The position numbers and the translations under genes were made by a program. From assembly GCF_000336675.1 (NCBI RefSeq), contig NZ_AOMB01000010.1:1-64000 (forward strand): a stretch of 64,000 bases of DNA, written 5' to 3'. Origin of the DNA: Halococcus hamelinensis 100A6 (lineage in GTDB: Archaea > Halobacteriota > Halobacteria > Halobacteriales > Halococcaceae). The notes under the pieces were generated by a model, which did no database searches, was not told the origin of the DNA, and was given only the letters and a program-made list of their open reading frames with translations. This document shows positions 3,429-56,947 of the stretch, one piece after another (the stretch's first letter is position 1; each line of letters begins with the position of its first letter).

Positions 3429-3897
3429 CCGCCCCCACCTCCACCTTTCACGCCCCACCTTTTGCTGCACTCGTTCGCTTCGCTCACGGGTCACTCCGTT
3501 CCCCGTTCGCATCCGAGGTTCTCCCTTCGGTCGAACCTCGCGCCGCTCACTCGCTGGCAAAACGTGGATCAAAAGCCACCGGCAGAGCGTAACTCTGCCG
3601 AGCCTGCGTTCGTTCCACTCACGCAGACCGCGTCACCCCACTCGCTTTCGCTCGGGGGTTCCTTGGCCCGCTCGCTCGGCTCCGCCTCGCTCGCGGTACG
3701 ATTACTCACCAACCGCCGACCGCCCCGCACAGCACCGCCTCCGCCGAAGCCCTCACTCGCTCCGCTCGTTCGCCCTTCACCCGCCAGGGACCGCCCCCGC
3801 GACCGCGCCACAACAGCCGCCGCACCGCGGCCGCGGGCCGCACCGCCCGCCGGCGGGCGACCTCCGGGCTTTTAGTCACCCGTTCCCAAGGGGAGCT
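3429..3897 (+). repeat. Gene-free stretch with modular intergenic repeat, copy R1
   Basis: No gene is supported here. Module A occupies 3455-3576: it begins CCACCTTTTGCTGC and ends with GCTGGCAAAA then TGGATCAAAAGC, and its ends form an inverted repeat. The interior holds short hairpins such as CGAGGTT...AACCTCG. Next come a hairpin GGCAGAG/CTCTGCC just after 3576, module E (3668-3702, ending TCGCTCGCGGTACG) and module B (about 3727-3760, CCGCACAGCACCGCC...GAAGCCCTC). The rest is C-rich low-complexity DNA. Open frames across it are by-products of the repeats. Confidence 0.75.
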
Positions 3898-10365: not shown

Positions 10366-10744
10366 CGAGCGGGCCGGAACCGAGCTTTTTCCTGCGGTTG
10401 GAGCGGTCGGCGCGCGCTCGCGGTCAGCGCGAACGATAGTGAGTGCTGAGCGCGGACACTGTGCGAGGGATGAGCGACGTGAGTGAACGAAGTGAACGAG
10501 CGGAGCGAATCGGCTGGGGAGGCGTGTGGGCGGTTGCGGTGGCGGAGAAGTTAGTGGTCGTACCGCGAGCGAACGGAGTGAGTGAGCGGGCCGACGACTG
10601 ACCAACGGGAAAGAGGAGGCTTTTGATCCACATTTTGCCAGCGTCATCAGAACTGCTAGCAGTTCTGATTGGCACACAAAATCGCGGAGCGATTTTGGGA
10701 CGAGTGAGCGAGCATCGCGAGCGACTGAGCGCAGCAAAAGGTGG
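10366..10744 (-). repeat. Gene-free stretch with modular intergenic repeat, copy R2 (reverse)
   Basis: No gene is supported. Read on the minus strand, module A occupies 10744-10619: it starts CCACCTTTTGCTGC immediately after the stop codon of the next gene and ends GGATCAAAAGC. Its interior includes the perfect palindrome TCAGAACTGCTAGCAGTTCTGA and the hairpin AAAATCGC-gga-GCGATTTT. Module E lies at 10590-10561 and module C (CCTCCCCAGCCGATTCG) at 10522-10506, followed by GAGTGAACG-type low-complexity DNA. A run of T at about 10384-10388 could terminate the ferredoxin transcript. Confidence 0.75.
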
Positions 10745-11140
10745 TTACGGGTACGTCGTACCGCTGGTGCTCACGTTCGCGGTGCCGACGGTGGTGCCGT
10801 TGACCGTGTTCACCGCGACCACCGTCGTGGTCGCTCCGAGCGGGAGCGGGAGCGTGACGCTGGTCTGACCCGCATCGACCGTCGTCGTGTAGAACGACTT
10901 CCCGTTCTCGGTCACGACCGAGAGTTTGGTCACCCCGAGGCTCGTCGTCGCCTGCGGGGTCAGTGAGACGGAGGCCTGGATGGAGGAGGCACCCCAGGCA
11001 TCGGACGTCGAGAAGCCCTGGAAGACCGCTGGGCTGTTGGATTCGACGGTGATCGTCGGTTGGGCCGTTACACAGCCGGAGCCGACGAGCGCGACGACGA
11101 CCACGAGGACGAGCATCCGGGTTCGGAGGCTGGAGGTCAC
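10745..11140 (-). CDS. Small secreted lipoprotein of unknown function
   Basis: This 131-residue protein starts at a GTG (11140). A short positively charged N-terminus is followed by a hydrophobic stretch (VLVVVVALVGSGC) with lipobox VGSGC, Cys23, so it is probably a Sec-exported lipoprotein. The mature part is Thr/Ser/Val-rich and low in charge, consistent with a single beta-sandwich (Ig-like) domain on the cell surface. No family is recognised. The next ATG (residue 9) would give a shorter signal with less positive charge, so the GTG is preferred. Confidence 0.7.
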   Translation of the reverse strand: MTSSLRTRMLVLVVVVALVGSGCVTAQPTITVESNSPAVFQGFSTSDAWGASSIQASVSLTPQATTSLGVTKLSVVTENGKSFYTTTVDAGQTSVTLPLPLGATTTVVAVNTVNGTTVGTANVSTSGTTYP

Positions 11141-25842: not shown

Positions 25843-27077
25843 AGCGACCTCGCTTTGATGAGGGTCTCTTCGGCATCCGCTGGCCCGCCCAGTTGCTCGA
25901 AGTCGTTCGCGAGGACGTACCGCCCGAAGGTCGGTCCCTCGACCCGGTAGTACACCCCGAGGATCTTGCCTCTGATCTCGTCGGCCACGACGGTGGTATC
26001 GAGCGCGTCCATCGCCATCTCCTTCGCCTCGGAGAGGGTGATCCCGGTGAGGGCCTCGGTGGCCTCCTCGTCGAAGATCGTCTCGTGGACCTCGTTGCCG
26101 TCGTCGATGACGGCCTTGATCCGGAGGTCGAACTCGCCATCGACCTCGCCGTGTTCGGAGCACCGACCGTTCTGGAGCACCCTGGTACAGTCCTCCTCGG
26201 GACACCGCTTGATCAGACCGCTCCCGCGCTGGATGTCCACTAGCGCGCCCTCCACAGTCGTGGAATCGTCGCCGACCTCGATGTCCTCGTCGAGCTCCTC
26301 GATGTCCGTCGTCCGGTTGAGCTTGACCGAGAACCGACCCTCGTACTCGTCGGTGACGAGGTTCGAGAGGCGGTAAACCCCGCCCTCGTCGAGTTCGGGG
26401 AGGTCGGACTTCGCCCACTTCGTGAACTTGATCGTCCCCGTTGGGTCGCCGAGCAGGCCCACCTGCCCCACCGACTCGCTCCGGGGCTCCCAGAGCTGGG
26501 TGACCTTCGCCGTGAGGTCGATCCACTCCTCGGGCGCGTCGACCTCGGTTATCGTTCGCTCCTCGCTCGCGCCGCCCGACTCGGGGACGTCGAGCTCCTC
26601 GTCGAGTTCCTCGATGTCCGTCGTTCGGTTGAGCTTGACCGAGAACCGACCCTCGTACTCGTCGGTGACGACGTTTTCGAGCCGGTAGACTCCGCCCTCG
26701 TCGAGTTCGGGCAGGTCGGAGGTCGCCCACGCGGTGAACTTGATGGTGCCCGTCTCGTCGCCGAGCAGGCCCACCTGGGCGATCGACTCGCTCCGGGGCT
26801 CCCAGAGCTGGAGGACCTTCACGGTGAGGTCGACCCACTGCTCGGGCGCGTCGATGGTCTCGACCGTCCGCTCCTCGCTCTCGCCACCGAGTTCGTCCCG
26901 GTCCATCCCCGCCTCGTCGAGGTAGCTGCTCGTGACGCTCCGGCGCGCCTCCTCGAGGGGAACCCGGTAGTCGTTGACCAGCGTGTCGAGGCGCTCCTCG
27001 ACGTCCTCGACGCTGATATCCAGTGTATCGGAAAACTGCTCGTGTATCTCCGCTGCGTGCTGTTGTACGTCCGTCAT
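25839..27077 (-). CDS. rpa: Replication protein A (single-stranded DNA-binding), three OB folds
   Basis: This 412-residue protein starts with a helical N-terminal ~65 residues. Two nearly identical OB-fold repeats follow at residues 67-170 and 171-274 (104-residue offset, both with LLGD.TGTIKFT.WA.SDLPELDE). A third, divergent OB domain from about 275 carries a zinc motif (Cys292, Cys297, Cys306, His309). RPA coats single-stranded DNA in replication and repair. The promoter is a clear TATA box at 27137-27145. The internal repeat is also strong at DNA level. It is co-transcribed with the rpap gene. Confidence 0.93.
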   Translation of the reverse strand: MTDVQQHAAEIHEQFSDTLDISVEDVEERLDTLVNDYRVPLEEARRSVTSSYLDEAGMDRDELGGESEERTVETIDAPEQWVDLTVKVLQLWEPRSESIAQVGLLGDETGTIKFTAWATSDLPELDEGGVYRLENVVTDEYEGRFSVKLNRTTDIEELDEELDVPESGGASEERTITEVDAPEEWIDLTAKVTQLWEPRSESVGQVGLLGDPTGTIKFTKWAKSDLPELDEGGVYRLSNLVTDEYEGRFSVKLNRTTDIEELDEDIEVGDDSTTVEGALVDIQRGSGLIKRCPEEDCTRVLQNGRCSEHGEVDGEFDLRIKAVIDDGNEVHETIFDEEATEALTGITLSEAKEMAMDALDTTVVADEIRGKILGVYYRVEGPTFGRYVLANDFEQLGGPADAEETLIKARSL

Positions 27078-31860: not shown

Positions 31861-32331
31861 CTACCCGCCCCAGAAGTTCTCGCGGCTGCCGAGGCGCTGA
31901 CGACGCCCCGGCCGTTTCGGCCCGTCGTCATCGTCGTCTTCGCCCTCACTCTCGTCGGTCTCGGTTTCGTCTTCATCGCCCGCCTCGCCCTCCTCTTCCA
32001 TTGGGAGGCGTTCGAGTTCGTCCGCCCGCGCGTGGTTCGATCGGACCTTCGTGATCTTCACCCGCGAGCGCGCCTCGGGCAACACGCCGTCGACGAAGAC
32101 GATGAAGCCGTCCTCGGTCCGGCCCACGCCCGCGCCGCTCTCGTGCATATCCTCGACCGTGACGACCAGCTCCTCGCCGATCGTCACCGGCTGGGATTTC
32201 AGCTCCCTGATGGGCTGGCTGTAGTGATTACACCACTCCGCACCGCCGCGATTCCCGTAGTGTTGACACCCCATGCCGTTGATCCGCTCGGAGAAACTCG
32301 GGCATTCGTCGGCGAGTGGACAGTCCGCCAT
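31861..32331 (-). CDS. TRAM domain protein with N-terminal Cys cluster and acidic tail
   Basis: This 156-residue protein has an N-terminal cysteine/histidine-rich segment (CPLADECPSF, GMGCQHYGN, WCNHY) that could bind zinc or an Fe-S cluster. A TRAM beta barrel (about residues 48-105, GEELVVTVEDMHESGAGVGR...GVLPEARSRVKITKV) follows, then a very acidic ~30-residue tail and a basic end. TRAM proteins bind RNA and act as RNA chaperones in archaea. The frame continues upstream into the adjacent repeat, so the ATG at 32331 was chosen. Confidence 0.82.
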   Translation of the reverse strand: MADCPLADECPSFSERINGMGCQHYGNRGGAEWCNHYSQPIRELKSQPVTIGEELVVTVEDMHESGAGVGRTEDGFIVFVDGVLPEARSRVKITKVRSNHARADELERLPMEEEGEAGDEDETETDESEGEDDDDDGPKRPGRRQRLGSRENFWGG

Positions 32332-32736
32332 ACGGATAGTTACTACCCAGGTAGCTAAATGCTTACGACCCACCTTTTGCTGCGCTCGTTCGGCGCGAAG
32401 CGCCTCACTCGCTGGCAAAAGGTGGATCAAAAGCGCGTCGGGTTCCTTTCAGTCACCCTCGCGCCCGCTCGCTCGGCTTCGCCTCGCTCGCGGTACAATC
32501 ACAATCCACTCCGCACAGTACCGCCGAAGCCCTCGCCGCACGCTCCTTTCAGTCGCTACTCGCTCCCTGCGGTCGCTCGCGCGGCTCGCCCTTCATCCAC
32601 CAGGAACCGCAACCGTCCCGCACTGTCACCGCACTGCGGCCGCCCCGCACCGCAACCGCACTGCGGCCGCCCCGCACCGCAACCGCACTGCGGCCGCCCC
32701 GCACCGCAACCGCACCGCGGCCGCACCGCCGACGTC
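32332..32736 (+). repeat. Gene-free stretch with modular intergenic repeat, copy R3
   Basis: No gene is supported. Module A is at 32370-32434: CCACCTTTTGC and GCAAAAGGTGG form a perfect 11-bp inverted repeat around only ~40 bp. Module E follows at 32461-32497 and module B, shortened, at about 32510-32540. The right part (32623-32730) is a 27-bp tandem repeat described separately. Here the A module faces away from both flanking genes, unlike the other copies. Confidence 0.75.
32623..32730 (+). repeat. 27-bp tandem repeat, about four units
   Basis: The string CTGCGG recurs at 32634, 32661 and 32688, with a variant CCGCGG at 32715, an exact 27-bp spacing. The unit contains CCGCACTGCGGCCGCCCCG and ACCGCA. 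Copies 1-3 are almost identical and the fourth diverges. The repeat lies between the TRAM and Nramp genes and is not part of either frame. Confidence 0.85.
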
Positions 32737-33993
32737 TCAGACGAACACTTCGGTGTAGATCAGCCAGACGTTGAGCACCACGATCAACGCGATCATCGCC
32801 CCGAGCACCGTCGTCGTGGTCTTCCGGTTCGTGAACGACTGCATCAACCCCTCCTCGCGCGTGAACCAGAGCAACGGGATCAACACGAACGGGAGTTCGA
32901 AACTCAGCGCGACCTGGGAGGCTACCAGCACGCTCGTCGGGTCGAAGCCCGCGATCACGACCGCGAGGCTCGGGACGAGGGTCACCGACCGCCGGAGCCA
33001 GACGTTGATCTGGAGGTCGAGGAAGCCGTCCATGACGGTCTGTCCGGCCATCGTCGCCACCAGCGAGGACGACAGGCCAGCGGCTATCAGCGCGAGCCCG
33101 AACACGAGGCTCGAGTTCGAGCCGAAGACGTTCTGGAGGGTGACGTACGCCTCGTTGAGCGTGCTTATTCCTGTGCCCTGGAGCGCCGCCGCGGCGACCA
33201 CGAGCATCGCGGCGTTGACGAACATCGCGCCGAACAGCGCGAGTATCGTGTCCACCGACTCGAACCGGAAGTGCCGGCGGTGGACGGCCTCGGTGTCCCC
33301 GTCGGTCTCCATCAACCGATTCCGGCGGTCCTGGACGATGTAGGGGTGGAGGTAGACCGAGTGGGGCATCACGGTCGCGCCGAGGATCCCGATCGCGACG
33401 TAGAGCGCGTCCGGACCGGGGATCGTCGGCAGGAGCCCGCGCGCGATCTCCCCACCCGTGGGTCGGGCGAGGGCCACTTCGAAGAGGAAGCCGAGCGCGA
33501 TCACGCCGACGAGCGCCATGATCACGAACTCGACCCAGCGGTAGCCCTGCTTACGGGCGGTTCTGACCCCAAGAAGGGCGAACGACGCCGCGCCCGCGAG
33601 CACCGCTCCCGCTGGCAGGGGGACGTTGAACACGAGGCTGAACCCGATCGCCGCGCCGATGATCTCCGCCATGTCGGTCGCGATCATCGCGAGCTCCGCG
33701 GCGGCCCACAGGAAGTACACGAGGGGCCGCGGCAACCGCTCGCGACAGAGCTGGGCGATCCCCTTCCCGGTCGCGATCCCGAGCTTCGCCGCGACGATCT
33801 GGATCCCCATCGCCATGAAGCTCGCGAGCACGATCACCCACAGCAACGCGGTGCCGTACTGCGCGCCACCCGAGATGTTGGTGGCCCAGTTCCCCGGGTC
33901 CATGTACGCGACGCTGATCAGGAATCCCGGCCCGAGATACGTCAGTAGCTCCCGAAACGGGAGCCGTCGCAGGGACGTGCCCCCGCGGCTCAC
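32737..33993 (-). CDS. mntH: Nramp family divalent metal (Mn/Fe) transporter
   Basis: This 418-residue membrane protein has about eleven helices. The Nramp metal-binding helix 1 motif is DPGNW (residues 32-36) and the helix 6 motif is MPHSVYLHPYIVQDRR, which together coordinate Mn2+ or Fe2+ for proton-driven uptake. It starts at GTG 33993, directly before the conserved N-terminus. An imperfect palindrome of DtxR/MntR type lies 37 bp upstream next to an AT-rich promoter, suggesting metal-dependent repression. Confidence 0.92.
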   Translation of the reverse strand: MSRGGTSLRRLPFRELLTYLGPGFLISVAYMDPGNWATNISGGAQYGTALLWVIVLASFMAMGIQIVAAKLGIATGKGIAQLCRERLPRPLVYFLWAAAELAMIATDMAEIIGAAIGFSLVFNVPLPAGAVLAGAASFALLGVRTARKQGYRWVEFVIMALVGVIALGFLFEVALARPTGGEIARGLLPTIPGPDALYVAIGILGATVMPHSVYLHPYIVQDRRNRLMETDGDTEAVHRRHFRFESVDTILALFGAMFVNAAMLVVAAAALQGTGISTLNEAYVTLQNVFGSNSSLVFGLALIAAGLSSSLVATMAGQTVMDGFLDLQINVWLRRSVTLVPSLAVVIAGFDPTSVLVASQVALSFELPFVLIPLLWFTREEGLMQSFTNRKTTTTVLGAMIALIVVLNVWLIYTEVFV

Positions 33994-43473: not shown

Positions 43474-44131
43474 CAACCACCTTTTGCTGCGCTCGCTCAC
43501 TGCGTTCGCTCGCTGGCAAAATGTGGATCAAAAGCGCTGCGCGCTCCCGCTGGTCGCGCTTGCGCCCGCTCACTCACCTCGTTCGTTCGCGGTGCAAACA
43601 CTACCAGTCCCGCAACCGCACAGCACCGCCTCCGCCGAAGCCCTCGGCCGCTCCGCTCACGGCTTCCTACGGTCGCCGGTCGCCTCGTGGTCGTTCGAGA
43701 GAGCAAAGCTCTCTCGTGATCGTCAAAAGAGTCTCCGACTCTTTTGGACCTCGCGGAGCTTCGCTCCGCTCAGTGACGAAAATCGGAGATTTTCGAACCA
43801 CCTCCCGGTGGTCGGCCACGCCCCGTTCGCCGTTCGCATCGAGGCGCTCGCATTGCTCGCGCCTCGCTCCGCGGCCTCGCCCTTCATCCACCAGGAGCGC
43901 ACAGCGCTCCTGGGCCTCGACTCACATTCGTTCGCCGAGACGCCAGGTCAGCAACCGCGACCGCATCCGCACCGCAACCGCCCCCGCCCGCCGCCCCCGT
44001 CACCGTCCGCTCGTTCGTGGTGGCCCCTCGCCGCCCGAGATCGCTCGAGAGAGGGCATGACACGCACACGAACCAGTTCCATTCGCCGGTTTCACAACCG
44101 CTTTTCAACTGTCGCCCGTCGTCCTGCGTGT
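43474..44131 (+). repeat. Gene-free stretch with modular intergenic repeat, copy R4 (longest)
   Basis: No gene is supported over 658 bp. Module A is at 43477-43535, module E at 43562-43597 and module B at about 43617-43650. The hairpin-array module D at 43700-43822 is identical to 55585-55707. Further hairpins follow, including CAGGAGCGC-aca-GCGCTCCTG near 43890, then C-rich low-complexity DNA and finally the aldo/keto reductase promoter (ccgcttttcaac, about 30 bp before the ATG). The many overlapping frames here reflect the repeats. Confidence 0.78.
43700..43822 (+). repeat. 123-bp hairpin-array repeat, copy 1
   Basis: Identical in every base to 55585-55707. It is built of consecutive short inverted repeats: AGAGC-aaa-GCTCT, AAAAGAGT-ctccg-ACTCTTTT, CGGAGC-ttc-GCTCCG, GAAAATC-gga-GATTTTC and CCACC-tccc-GGTGG. 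Confidence 0.9.
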
Positions 44132-46629: not shown

Positions 46630-47601
46630 ATGGCAACCGAGTTCCCCGACTACCTCGACGTGGACTACACCGACGGTGAAGGTGAAGACCCCGAGGACTA
46701 CCCGACGATAGAGGACAAGCTCGAGAAGGCGATCGAGGTCACCCGGCGCGGCCTCGAACAGTACGAGAACCCCTCCGTGATGTGGACCGGCGGGAAGGAC
46801 TCGACGCTCACCCTCTACTTCGTGAAGGAGGTCGCCGACCGGTTCGACCTCGAAGTCCCCCCCGTGATCTTCATCGACCACTACCAGCACTTCGACGAGC
46901 TGTTCGACTTCGTCGAGCACTGGGCCGACGAGTGGGACCTCGAAGTCGTCTACGCCCGCAACGACGACGCGGGTCGCTACGTCGAGGAGAACGACCTCGA
47001 ACCCGGTGACGACATCCCGGTCTCGGAGCTCTCCGAGCACAACCAGCACCACATCCGGGACATCCTCGAATACGAGGAGGACACCTTCCCGTTCCTGCTC
47101 GACACCTACGTGGGCAACCACCTCCTCAAGACCGTGGCGCTCAACGACGCTCTGGAGGAGTACGACATCGACGGGATCCTCTCGGGCATCCGCTGGGACG
47201 AACAGGAGGCCCGCGCGGACGAGACCTTCTTCAGCCCGCGTCACGACCCCGAGATCTACCCGCCCCACGACCGCGTCCAGCCGATCCTCCAGTTCGACGA
47301 GGCCGACGTCTGGGAGACCTTCTGGCACTTCGTCGTGCCCGAGACCGTCGAGGAGTACCCCGACGAGGGCTACGTCCCCCAGGACTACGACGACCTGCCG
47401 AACGGCCTGACCCACGAGGACATCCCTGTGAGTCCGAAGTACTTCGAGGGCTTTCGCTCGCTCGGCAGCGAGGTCTCGACCGACAAGACCGAGTCCACGC
47501 CCGCGTGGCTCCAGGACCTCGACAACACCACCGAACGCGCCGGCCGCGCCCAGGACAAGGAGGACCTGATGGAGCGCCTGCGCGACCTCGGTTACATGTG
47601 A
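46630..47601 (+). CDS. PAPS reductase/CysD-like PP-loop protein, cysteine-free
   Basis: This 323-residue protein has the PP-loop WTGGKDSTL (residues 52-60) and the segments IFIDHYQHFDELFDF, SGIRWDEQEAR and YPPHDRVQPILQFDEADVW of the PAPS reductase/ATP sulfurylase small-subunit superfamily. It contains no cysteine at all, so it cannot perform thiol-based PAPS reduction; adenylation-type chemistry is more likely. The start at 46630 parallels its paralogue at 48035 (TEFPDYLDVDYTDG versus TDQFPEYLDVDYTDG). No sulfate-assimilation partner genes are adjacent. Confidence 0.85.
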   Translation: MATEFPDYLDVDYTDGEGEDPEDYPTIEDKLEKAIEVTRRGLEQYENPSVMWTGGKDSTLTLYFVKEVADRFDLEVPPVIFIDHYQHFDELFDFVEHWADEWDLEVVYARNDDAGRYVEENDLEPGDDIPVSELSEHNQHHIRDILEYEEDTFPFLLDTYVGNHLLKTVALNDALEEYDIDGILSGIRWDEQEARADETFFSPRHDPEIYPPHDRVQPILQFDEADVWETFWHFVVPETVEEYPDEGYVPQDYDDLPNGLTHEDIPVSPKYFEGFRSLGSEVSTDKTESTPAWLQDLDNTTERAGRAQDKEDLMERLRDLGYM

Positions 47602-48034: not shown

Positions 48035-48988
48035 ATGACCGACCAGTTCCCCGAGTACCTCGACGTGGACTACACCGACGGCGACGACCACGACGCGGGC
48101 GCGTACCCGACCCTCTCGGACAAACTCGAAAAGGCAGCGACGGTGACCGCGACCGCGCTCGAACAGTACGAGAACCCCGCGGTGATGTGGACCGGCGGGA
48201 AGGACTCGACGCTCGTGCTCTACGTGGTCCGGGAGGTCGCCCGCGAGCGCGGGATCGACGTCCCGCCGGTCGTCTTCATCGACCACTTCGAGCACTTCCC
48301 CGAGGTGATGGCGTTCGCCGAGCGCTGGGCCGAGCAGTGGGACCTCGACCTCCGATTCGCGCGCAACGAGGCCATCGCCGGGCTCGGTGCCGAGCCGGGC
48401 GACGAGATCCCCCTCTCGGACCTCGGCGAGACGAACCGACGCGAACTCGACCGCATCGACTACGAGGGCGATAGCCTCACCTTGGACGCGGATTCGTTCG
48501 AGGGCAACCACCTCCTCAAGACCGTGGCGCTGAACGAGGTCCTCGAAACGACCGGCTTCGACGGGATCTTCTCGGGCGTCCGCTGGGACGAACAGGAGGC
48601 CCGCGCCGGCGAGACGTTCTTCAGCCCGCGCCACGAGTCGGCGAAGTACCCGCCCCACGACCGCGTCCACCCGATCCTCCAGTTCGAGGAGGTGGACGTC
48701 TGGGACGCCTTCTGGAACGCCGTCGTCCCGGACACCGTCGAGGGCTACCCGGCGGGACACGTTCCCGAGAGCACCGACGACCTCCCCGACGGCCTCACCG
48801 CCGAGGACATCCCTGTCAGCCCGAAGTACTTCGAGGGCTTTCGCTCGCTCGGGACCGAATCCGGGTCGGGGAGGTCCAGTGAACGCCCCGCGTGGCTCCA
48901 GGACCTGGAGGGCTCCACCGAGCGCGAGGGCCGCGCCCAGGACAAGGAGGGGTTGATGGAGCGCCTGCGCGACCTCGGCTACATGTAG
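48035..48988 (+). CDS. PAPS reductase/CysD-like PP-loop protein, cysteine-free paralogue
   Basis: This 317-residue protein is strongly similar along its whole length to the one at 46630: PP-loop WTGGKDSTL at the same position, FIDHFEHF, GVRWDEQEAR, YPPHDRVHPILQFEEVDVW, and the same C-terminus MERLRDLGYM. It also lacks any cysteine. The central ~60 residues (after RNEAIAGL) are the least conserved part and may set specificity. A tandem duplication is clear. The start ATG directly follows the promoter-like acctacattaccccgg. Confidence 0.85.
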   Translation: MTDQFPEYLDVDYTDGDDHDAGAYPTLSDKLEKAATVTATALEQYENPAVMWTGGKDSTLVLYVVREVARERGIDVPPVVFIDHFEHFPEVMAFAERWAEQWDLDLRFARNEAIAGLGAEPGDEIPLSDLGETNRRELDRIDYEGDSLTLDADSFEGNHLLKTVALNEVLETTGFDGIFSGVRWDEQEARAGETFFSPRHESAKYPPHDRVHPILQFEEVDVWDAFWNAVVPDTVEGYPAGHVPESTDDLPDGLTAEDIPVSPKYFEGFRSLGTESGSGRSSERPAWLQDLEGSTEREGRAQDKEGLMERLRDLGYM

Positions 48989-55362: not shown

Positions 55363-55820
55363 ACGACGATTTCGGTCGGTCCCTGATTTCGGAACTGTCT
55401 TTCCCGCTGTTTCCTCCTCCGAGTCTGTATCCTGATCTGTCTATCCAGCTGGTTCGTCTACGGCAAATCCCGGTGCAAACGAGAACCGCACAGCACCGCC
55501 ACCGCTCCCGCCCCGCACGGGCCACGTGCCTCCCCAGCCGATTCGCTTCGCTCGGACTCCGTCCTCACTCGCTCATCCACTGGCAGAGCAAAGCTCTCTC
55601 GTGATCGTCAAAAGAGTCTCCGACTCTTTTGGACCTCGCGGAGCTTCGCTCCGCTCAGTGACGAAAATCGGAGATTTTCGAACCACCTCCCGGTGGTCGG
55701 CCACGCCTCGCTCCCCGTTCGCATCGAGGTTCTCGCTTCGCTCGAACCTCGCCGTTCGGACCGGTCGCGAGCGCGCGCCACCGCGGCTGGTCTGTGTCGG
55801 AGTCGACGCGCCATCGCGAC
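55363..55820 (+). repeat. Gene-free stretch with modular intergenic repeat, copy R5
   Basis: No gene is supported. After ~100 bp of ordinary sequence downstream of serS, the end of module E appears (cggtgcaaac, 55471-55480). Module B follows (ACCGCACAGCACCGCC, about 55485-55500), then module C (CCTCCCCAGCCGATTCG, 55530-55546), a fragment tcatccactggcag, and module D (55585-55707). Module A is absent. The right end has the hairpin CGAGGTTC...GAACCTCG. Confidence 0.75.
55585..55707 (+). repeat. 123-bp hairpin-array repeat, copy 2
   Basis: Identical over 123 bp to 43700-43822, with the same five consecutive hairpins. Sequences on both sides differ, so the identity is confined to this block. Confidence 0.9.
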
Positions 55821-56523: not shown

Positions 56524-56947
56524 ACCCAGGCTTTCGCCGGTGGCGACATAGGCGTGACGGGCCGAACCGGAAAACGGGAGCTGAGTCACACTCCCACCCA
56601 CCGCGTGGCGGTTGACGCGCGGTGTGCGGGCCGCCCACGGGCGGCCCGCGACGCCCGTGCGAGGGATGACTGAGCGAACGGAGTGAGCGAAGGAATCGGC
56701 TGGGGAGGTTCGTGGCCGTTGCGGGGCGGGAGCGGTGCTGTGCGGCTCTCATTTGTGTCGGGATTCGTGTTGGTGCGTTACGGCTCGGTTATCGCTCTCT
56801 CCGTTCCACGTCGTTACGTTACGGCTCTACCATCGTTCTCTCCTCTTTCGCCCTCCTCAGTTCAGTACCGTCCCCGTGTACCGGGTTCTTTCACCTCCAC
56901 CGTGCGAGGACGACAGTTTAAACCCTGGAACCGGCAGAGAGGAGACA
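56524..56947 (-). repeat. Gene-free stretch with partial intergenic repeat, copy R6 (reverse)
   Basis: No gene is supported. On the minus strand, module B (CCGCACAGCACCGC) lies at about 56742-56729 and module C (CCTCCCCAGCCGATTCC) at 56707-56691, followed by the CTCACTCCGTTCGCTCAG low-complexity tail. Modules A and D are absent. To the right, an imperfect 26-bp direct repeat (56777-56802 and 56818-56843) precedes the Hel308 promoter (cagtttaaac, about 32 bp before the ATG). Confidence 0.65.

Follow-up and report, generated by a model that had tools for sequence, protein, structure and literature searches.

A composite repeat element recurs in a 3.42 Mb draft Halococcus genome, the source of the 64,000-nt stretch of DNA analysed here (the window). 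The element has a fixed plan and module order and a set position behind genes, its core stem covaries, its sites are conserved in a sister species, its hairpins are shuffled between sites, and junctions of chromosome rearrangements lie at it. We read it as an ancient, mostly vertically inherited scaffold for two-way termination of transcription at T-runs that is also a recombination hot spot, and give this reading a probability of about one half. The intergenic regions of haloarchaea are commonly regarded as lacking features. The family described here is haloarchaea-wide, marks gene ends and offers a candidate, open to test, for terminating transcription in both directions in archaea.

Plan of the element and copies in the window

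A first-pass annotation of the window had proposed a composite family of five modules, A to E, in fixed order at six loci (R1 to R6). The modules were confirmed at their positions, with matches above chance for A (4 exact matches against 0.06 expected at up to two mismatches) and B (8 against 0.42); the 3 matches of C against 0.60 expected (up to three mismatches) are not significant in the window alone. The composite family and its order hold genome-wide and in the sister species. Module A has 50 copies in the genome, 44 exact and 6 with one mismatch, and the reversed control gave 3 in all and none exact. The tail motif T, GCCCTTCATCCRCCAGG, has 60 matches in the genome and none in the control. 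In about one third of these the A module is of another type, for example CCCACTTTTTT–hairpin–CAAAAACCTGGACTAAAAA, and most of those lie between convergent genes. The family was traced by pattern searches with built-in reversed controls; hairpin loops are swapped and not conserved.

Every fully read copy in the two species follows the order A1-A2-E-B1-B2-T or A1-A2-E-C. The first half consists of the A 5' arm CCACCTTTTGCTGC, slot 1, the A 3' arm GGCAAAATGTGGATCAAAAGC, slot 2 with its hairpin module, and module E, which encloses slot 3 and ends in CGCTCGCGGTACAATCACTAAC. The second half consists of a CCGCAACCGC-rich linker, module B (CCGCACAGCACCGC..GCCGAAGCCCTC), slot 4 and the tail T, which may be followed by a hairpin ending in GCCGAGACGCCAGG (T2). 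Each slot holds a palindromic hairpin. In a minority of copies module C replaces B and the tail as the end of the element. Module D, a hairpin array, had been given a fixed fifth place. This was rejected because the same array lies in several contexts, namely slot 1 (L010, L045), slot 4 (R4, L137), after C (R5, L007) and after T (L043), and is thus a cassette. A CCGCAACCGC-rich stretch also recurs behind most elements.

R4 (43477-43947, plus strand) is a complete composite that begins 3 nt past the stop codon of a DUF502 gene. It had been ended at 43822 and runs to about 43947. The A 5' arm CCACCTTTTGCTGC with its T-run (43477-43490) is followed by the slot 1 hairpin cassette (43491-43514) and the A 3' arm GGCAAAATGTGGATCAAAAGC (43515-43535), whose two A-runs are T-runs on the other strand; the pairing of the two arms is supported by covariation in relatives. 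Slot 2 comes next, then module E, which ends in CGCGGTGCAAACACT (43588-43602), and module B, CCGCACAGCACCGCC..GCCGAAGCCCTC (43616-43645). Slot 4 (43646-43878) holds the long hairpin array that had been called D. The tail motif GCCCTTCATCCACCAGG (43879-43895) and the hairpin T2 (43896-43947), ending in GCCGAGACGCCAGG, complete the copy.

The modules listed earlier for the other loci are present; the slot 2 module had been omitted, and R1 and R3 also carry tail T. R1 (3455-3788, plus strand) thus has A, slot 2, E, B and a tail T with one mismatch (3772-3788). R2 (10506-10744, minus strand) has A, slot 2, E and C, and its module A abuts the stop codon of the minus-strand gene at 10745-11116. R3 (32370-32604, plus strand) has A, slot 2, E, B and tail T, lies 39 nt upstream of an opposite-strand gene (31861-32331) and is found at the same position in most of ten Halococcus genomes. 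R5 (55471-55752, plus strand), with B, C and the hairpin array, and R6 (56691-56745, minus strand), with B and C only, are inverted partial copies without A on either side of two small minus-strand genes. A crude gene caller gave ten gaps longer than 300 bp in the window, six of which are R1 to R6; the remainder may hold missed genes. The elements make up about 2.5% of the window.

Location of module A behind genes

In 53 copies from the two species, the distance from a same-strand stop codon to the start of module A behind it is 0-34 nt (median 4), as taken from a crude ORF caller. Five further A copies of the genome lie 0-8 nt behind tRNA genes. Module A thus shares a trait of archaeal terminators, a T-run close behind stop codons and tRNA 3' ends. 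In Haloferax volcanii such T-runs are tested intergenic terminators, likewise found just a few nt downstream of stop codons and tRNA genes, and T5C terminates 95% (PMC7237163). In contrast to these simple terminators, the T-run of module A is the arm of a covarying stem, stands opposite A-runs and heads a composite of several hundred bp.

From the T-run rule of haloarchaeal termination, module A would terminate transcription in both directions. A T-run in its 5' arm follows the stop codon or tRNA end within a few nt, and two A-runs lie in its 3' arm, so each DNA strand would offer a T-run to polymerase arriving from its own side. The rest of the composite may be an evolutionary by-product of readily recombining palindromes, with the anchors kept as homology or functional sites. 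Three observations count against the terminator reading. The T4 of type I copies is a short T-run, and the strong terminator tested was T5C. For six of the 50 A copies in the genome, the adjacent gene is on the opposite strand and faces the copy with its promoter side. The complementary strand is predicted to give the more stable RNA, which would not follow from a simple hairpin in a forward-strand 3'-UTR.

Orthologous sites in a sister species

We compared the copies with those of a sister species whose flanks are about 93% identical. About 37 of the 50 A copies have a type-I orthologue there. Twelve others were listed for checking; the syntenic gap was located for eight and not for four, and an element is present in all eight gaps; in some it belongs to another T-run type, and the one at R2 is degenerate. 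Copies that seemed to be missing from the sister species were therefore rejected as a sign of mobility. The comparison of orthologous gaps that had been proposed thus found an element at every site inspected.

At orthologous sites the framework anchors are 0.95-1.00 identical. The hairpins in slots 1, 3 and 4 resemble one another no more than under random pairing (p = 0.08, 0.20 and 0.19), and the slot 2 class is retained at 11 of 25 sites against 5.9 expected. The slots change independently of one another. Slots no better than random within a framework that is 95–100% identical argue for cassette exchange. One 60-nt cassette occurs at three sites of the first genome and at three different sites of the second. 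In slot 1 of R3 the orthologues carry the same hairpin, which differs mainly by an inverted loop (GAA in one, TTC in the other).

The pattern is compatible with conversion or template switching that swaps one hairpin at a time; gene conversion has been documented for haloarchaea (PMC4056108). Scattered copies in a polyploid, gene-converting genome, together with template switching at palindromes by the replication fork, could produce both cassette exchange and loop inversion. The framework would be kept if the anchors and the stem matter and the hairpin sequence does not. The same recombination could yield inversions and the duplications of gene end plus element seen in other genera; we infer both the conversion and this origin of the duplications from the sequences compared. 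With palindromes reshuffled at random between conserved anchors, the element keeps a natural record of exchange hairpin by hairpin, and it opens to testing how palindromes are converted in polyploid archaea.

Tentatively, the exchange may be the work of a dedicated or hairpin-specific process that moves single palindromic cassettes between loci and slots of scaffolds fixed throughout the genus. In other haloarchaea the core would build tandem arrays from itself and copied 3' ends of adjacent genes, and the whole would form an undescribed class of element. We consider this slot-and-cassette system a fair way short of probable.

Mobility and the copies outside Halococcus

The element had also been proposed to be a non-autonomous mobile element. 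Recent transposition in Halococcus is not supported. No empty site was found among those inspected in the sister species, none of 54 Halococcus copies has flanking direct repeats scoring at least 36 (repeats of a few bp are invisible to this test), and by-eye reading of the sequences upstream of Halococcus copies noticed no conserved target tetramer or flank. In Halococcus the family is best read, from these comparisons, as ancient and mostly vertically inherited.

Outside Halococcus, flanking direct repeats, mostly 30-110 bp, occur at 39 of 75 copies and duplicate the 3' terminus of the convergently oriented neighbour gene. A second large group among the 75 lacks repeats and directly adjoins a stop codon. 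Random positions in the same loci gave repeats in 17 of 243 cases, part of them probably inside the same arrays. The arrays run gene end–element–gene end–element. Two sites are polymorphic. A locus that we take to be argF-like, from its C-terminal sequence read by eye, is occupied in G060, G039 and G067 and empty in their congeners G023 and G088, and the gene end at L253 is occupied in one and empty in the other of G093 and G100. However, beyond the repeat of several copies (L296, L299, L272) lie remnants of a second element, and the length of the repeat differs between species at one site. These two observations weaken a plain target-site duplication and favour tandem duplication of a unit of element plus gene end.

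An element of the REP/BIME or PATE kind, moved in trans by an IS200/IS605-type single-strand or other transposase and surviving through host fitness only behind stop codons, would account for these polymorphic sites and flanking repeats, as well as for the high copy number, the palindromes, the wide and patchy distribution and the identical hairpin cores across families. Against the occupied Halococcus sites, the absence of flanking repeats there and the signs of tandem duplication elsewhere, we regard it as rather unlikely.

The gene-end duplications in other genera are snapshots of repeats capturing coding sequence. Tandem arrays of element and copied gene 3' end were seen at L251 (G060), L244 (G081), L249 and L254 (G093 and G100), L252, L253 and L272. 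They lie behind thiolase-like, aminopeptidase-like and other genes, named from their C-terminal sequence, and the same gene families recur in different genera.

Core stem and covariation

The core of module A reads CCACC–T-run–hairpin–A-run–TGG–A-run, and its 5' arm, CCACC–T-run, forms the stem with A-run–x–GTGG. The lengths of the T-run and the A-run are correlated (r = 0.76, n = 151), a value unreached in 5000 permutations. CGACC is always paired with xTCG, and CCACC with TGG. We also searched for the variant ACCTTTT..AAAACGTNNATGAAA with the two bases before ACC and two N left free. Its two outer pairs were Watson-Crick in 60 of 60 cases (30 distinct copies; permutation mean 31.9, maximum 48). 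The stem feet seen are CCAC/GTGG, CGAC/GTCG, GAAC/GTTC and CAAC/GTTG, and in several copies the foot runs up to or into the stop codon (TAGAACC, TGAACC; for example L351 and L356). The stem structure is supported by covariation and not by folding energy.

The RNA of the complementary strand is predicted to be more stable for 60 of 67 Halococcus hairpins and 96 of 98 others (156 of the 166 collected). A simple forward-strand RNA structure, a 3'-UTR hairpin, is disfavoured because the reverse strand folds better. The element had been suggested to be a structured RNA; the structure stood, and, given this strand preference, it may form in RNA or in DNA.

A structured regulatory RNA in the 3'-UTR of many mRNAs would act in stability, in processing or as a reservoir of sRNAs, with hairpins that shield from 3' exonucleases. 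The location behind stop codons and the covarying stem, which in L351 and L356 includes the stop codon, would suit it. Yet the outer pairs contain no G-U, the hairpins are interchangeable, the more stable RNA comes from the reverse strand, and tRNA genes carry the element too. An Rfam scan of the window at the gathering score gave two tRNAs only and no match for the element. On this evidence such an RNA is improbable.

Rearrangements at the elements

The window maps to contig 5 of the sister species as three blocks, and the two breaks of synteny lie inside R4 and, as the second break in the window, inside R1. At several elements the flanks are reciprocally swapped between the two genomes. Across ten Halococcus genomes R3 retains its left neighbour, and at least four of the genomes have a different one on the right. 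The element thus coincides with chromosome rearrangements. It had been proposed as a possible chromosome-organising repeat; breakpoints do fall within elements, which shows recombination between repeats and not organisation. Seven other Halococcus species lack R4, but gene order differs there, so these are not clean empty sites and a simple insertion polymorphism of R4 was rejected. Some of the inversions may be assembly errors, as both genomes are drafts, misjoins are drawn to repeats, and several copies of the first genome contain N and duplicated flanks. In L001, L007, L018, L027, L041 and L044 a single N followed by a duplicated stretch looks like a scaffolding artefact of that genome.

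Very improbable, judged from the sequence features, is a DNA-level element, a cruciform or protein site for nucleoid proteins, gyrase or fork control (an insulator) like the BIME-gyrase sites: the strict Watson-Crick pairing, the loop inversion in slot 1 of R3 and the junctions at elements would suit it, but the way it sits directly against stop codons and tRNA ends, together with the coupling of T-run and A-run, points to transcription.

Distribution and related elements

The strict A pattern was found in 14 of 33 haloarchaeal genomes and in 1 of 164 other Halobacteriota. Among 117 genomes of the order, the CGTNNATGAAA variant occurs in 27 (11 genera) and the hairpin core GCTCACTKCGTTCGCTCGC in 43. 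The B-tail module is present in all nine Halococcus genomes searched, with 28-46 copies each, and outside Halococcus in a few genomes of one other family, with 1-6 copies each. Controls gave 0 in all of these searches. The order A–slot 2–E recurs in another family. We found no published description of the element in the open-access literature, where it is apparently undescribed; one may exist elsewhere.

REP/BIME elements and the PATEs of haloarchaea are nearest in kind. REP/BIME are described as high-copy intergenic palindromic units in mosaics, often 3' of genes, which have been suggested to act in termination, in mRNA stability and as binding sites of gyrase (PMC3733652, PMC2817692). The present element is also made of high-copy palindromic intergenic units in mosaics. 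It differs in being archaeal, in having a T-run/A-run stem at the stop codon and in exchanging cassettes between slots. REP/BIME have a GTAG or CGTC tag at the stem foot, whereas the feet here are CCAC/GTGG and its variants, and their units alternate, whereas here the slot order is fixed and the conserved anchors are long. The PATEs and SMRs of Haloquadratum walsbyi are likewise haloarchaeal, non-coding and palindromic, with mosaic insertions of one element in another; PATEs have IS605-like near-terminal palindromes and strain-specific insertions (PMC3119063). In contrast, the Halococcus sites are common to species, and no strain-specific insertion was seen among those inspected. MITEs are likewise short, non-coding and present in many copies, but no short target-site duplication was noticed at Halococcus copies and no terminal inverted repeat was seen to span the composite.

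Other repeats were observed in the window. The linker behind R3 holds a tandem repeat of about 27 nt, ACTGCGGCCGCCCCGCACCGCAACCGC, at 32606-32740. The adjacent 274-nt direct repeats at 26269-26542 and 26581-26854 are 87% identical and probably lie within a gene. Direct repeats at 46640-47471 and 48045-48858, with 77-85% identity, are likely a tandem gene duplication.
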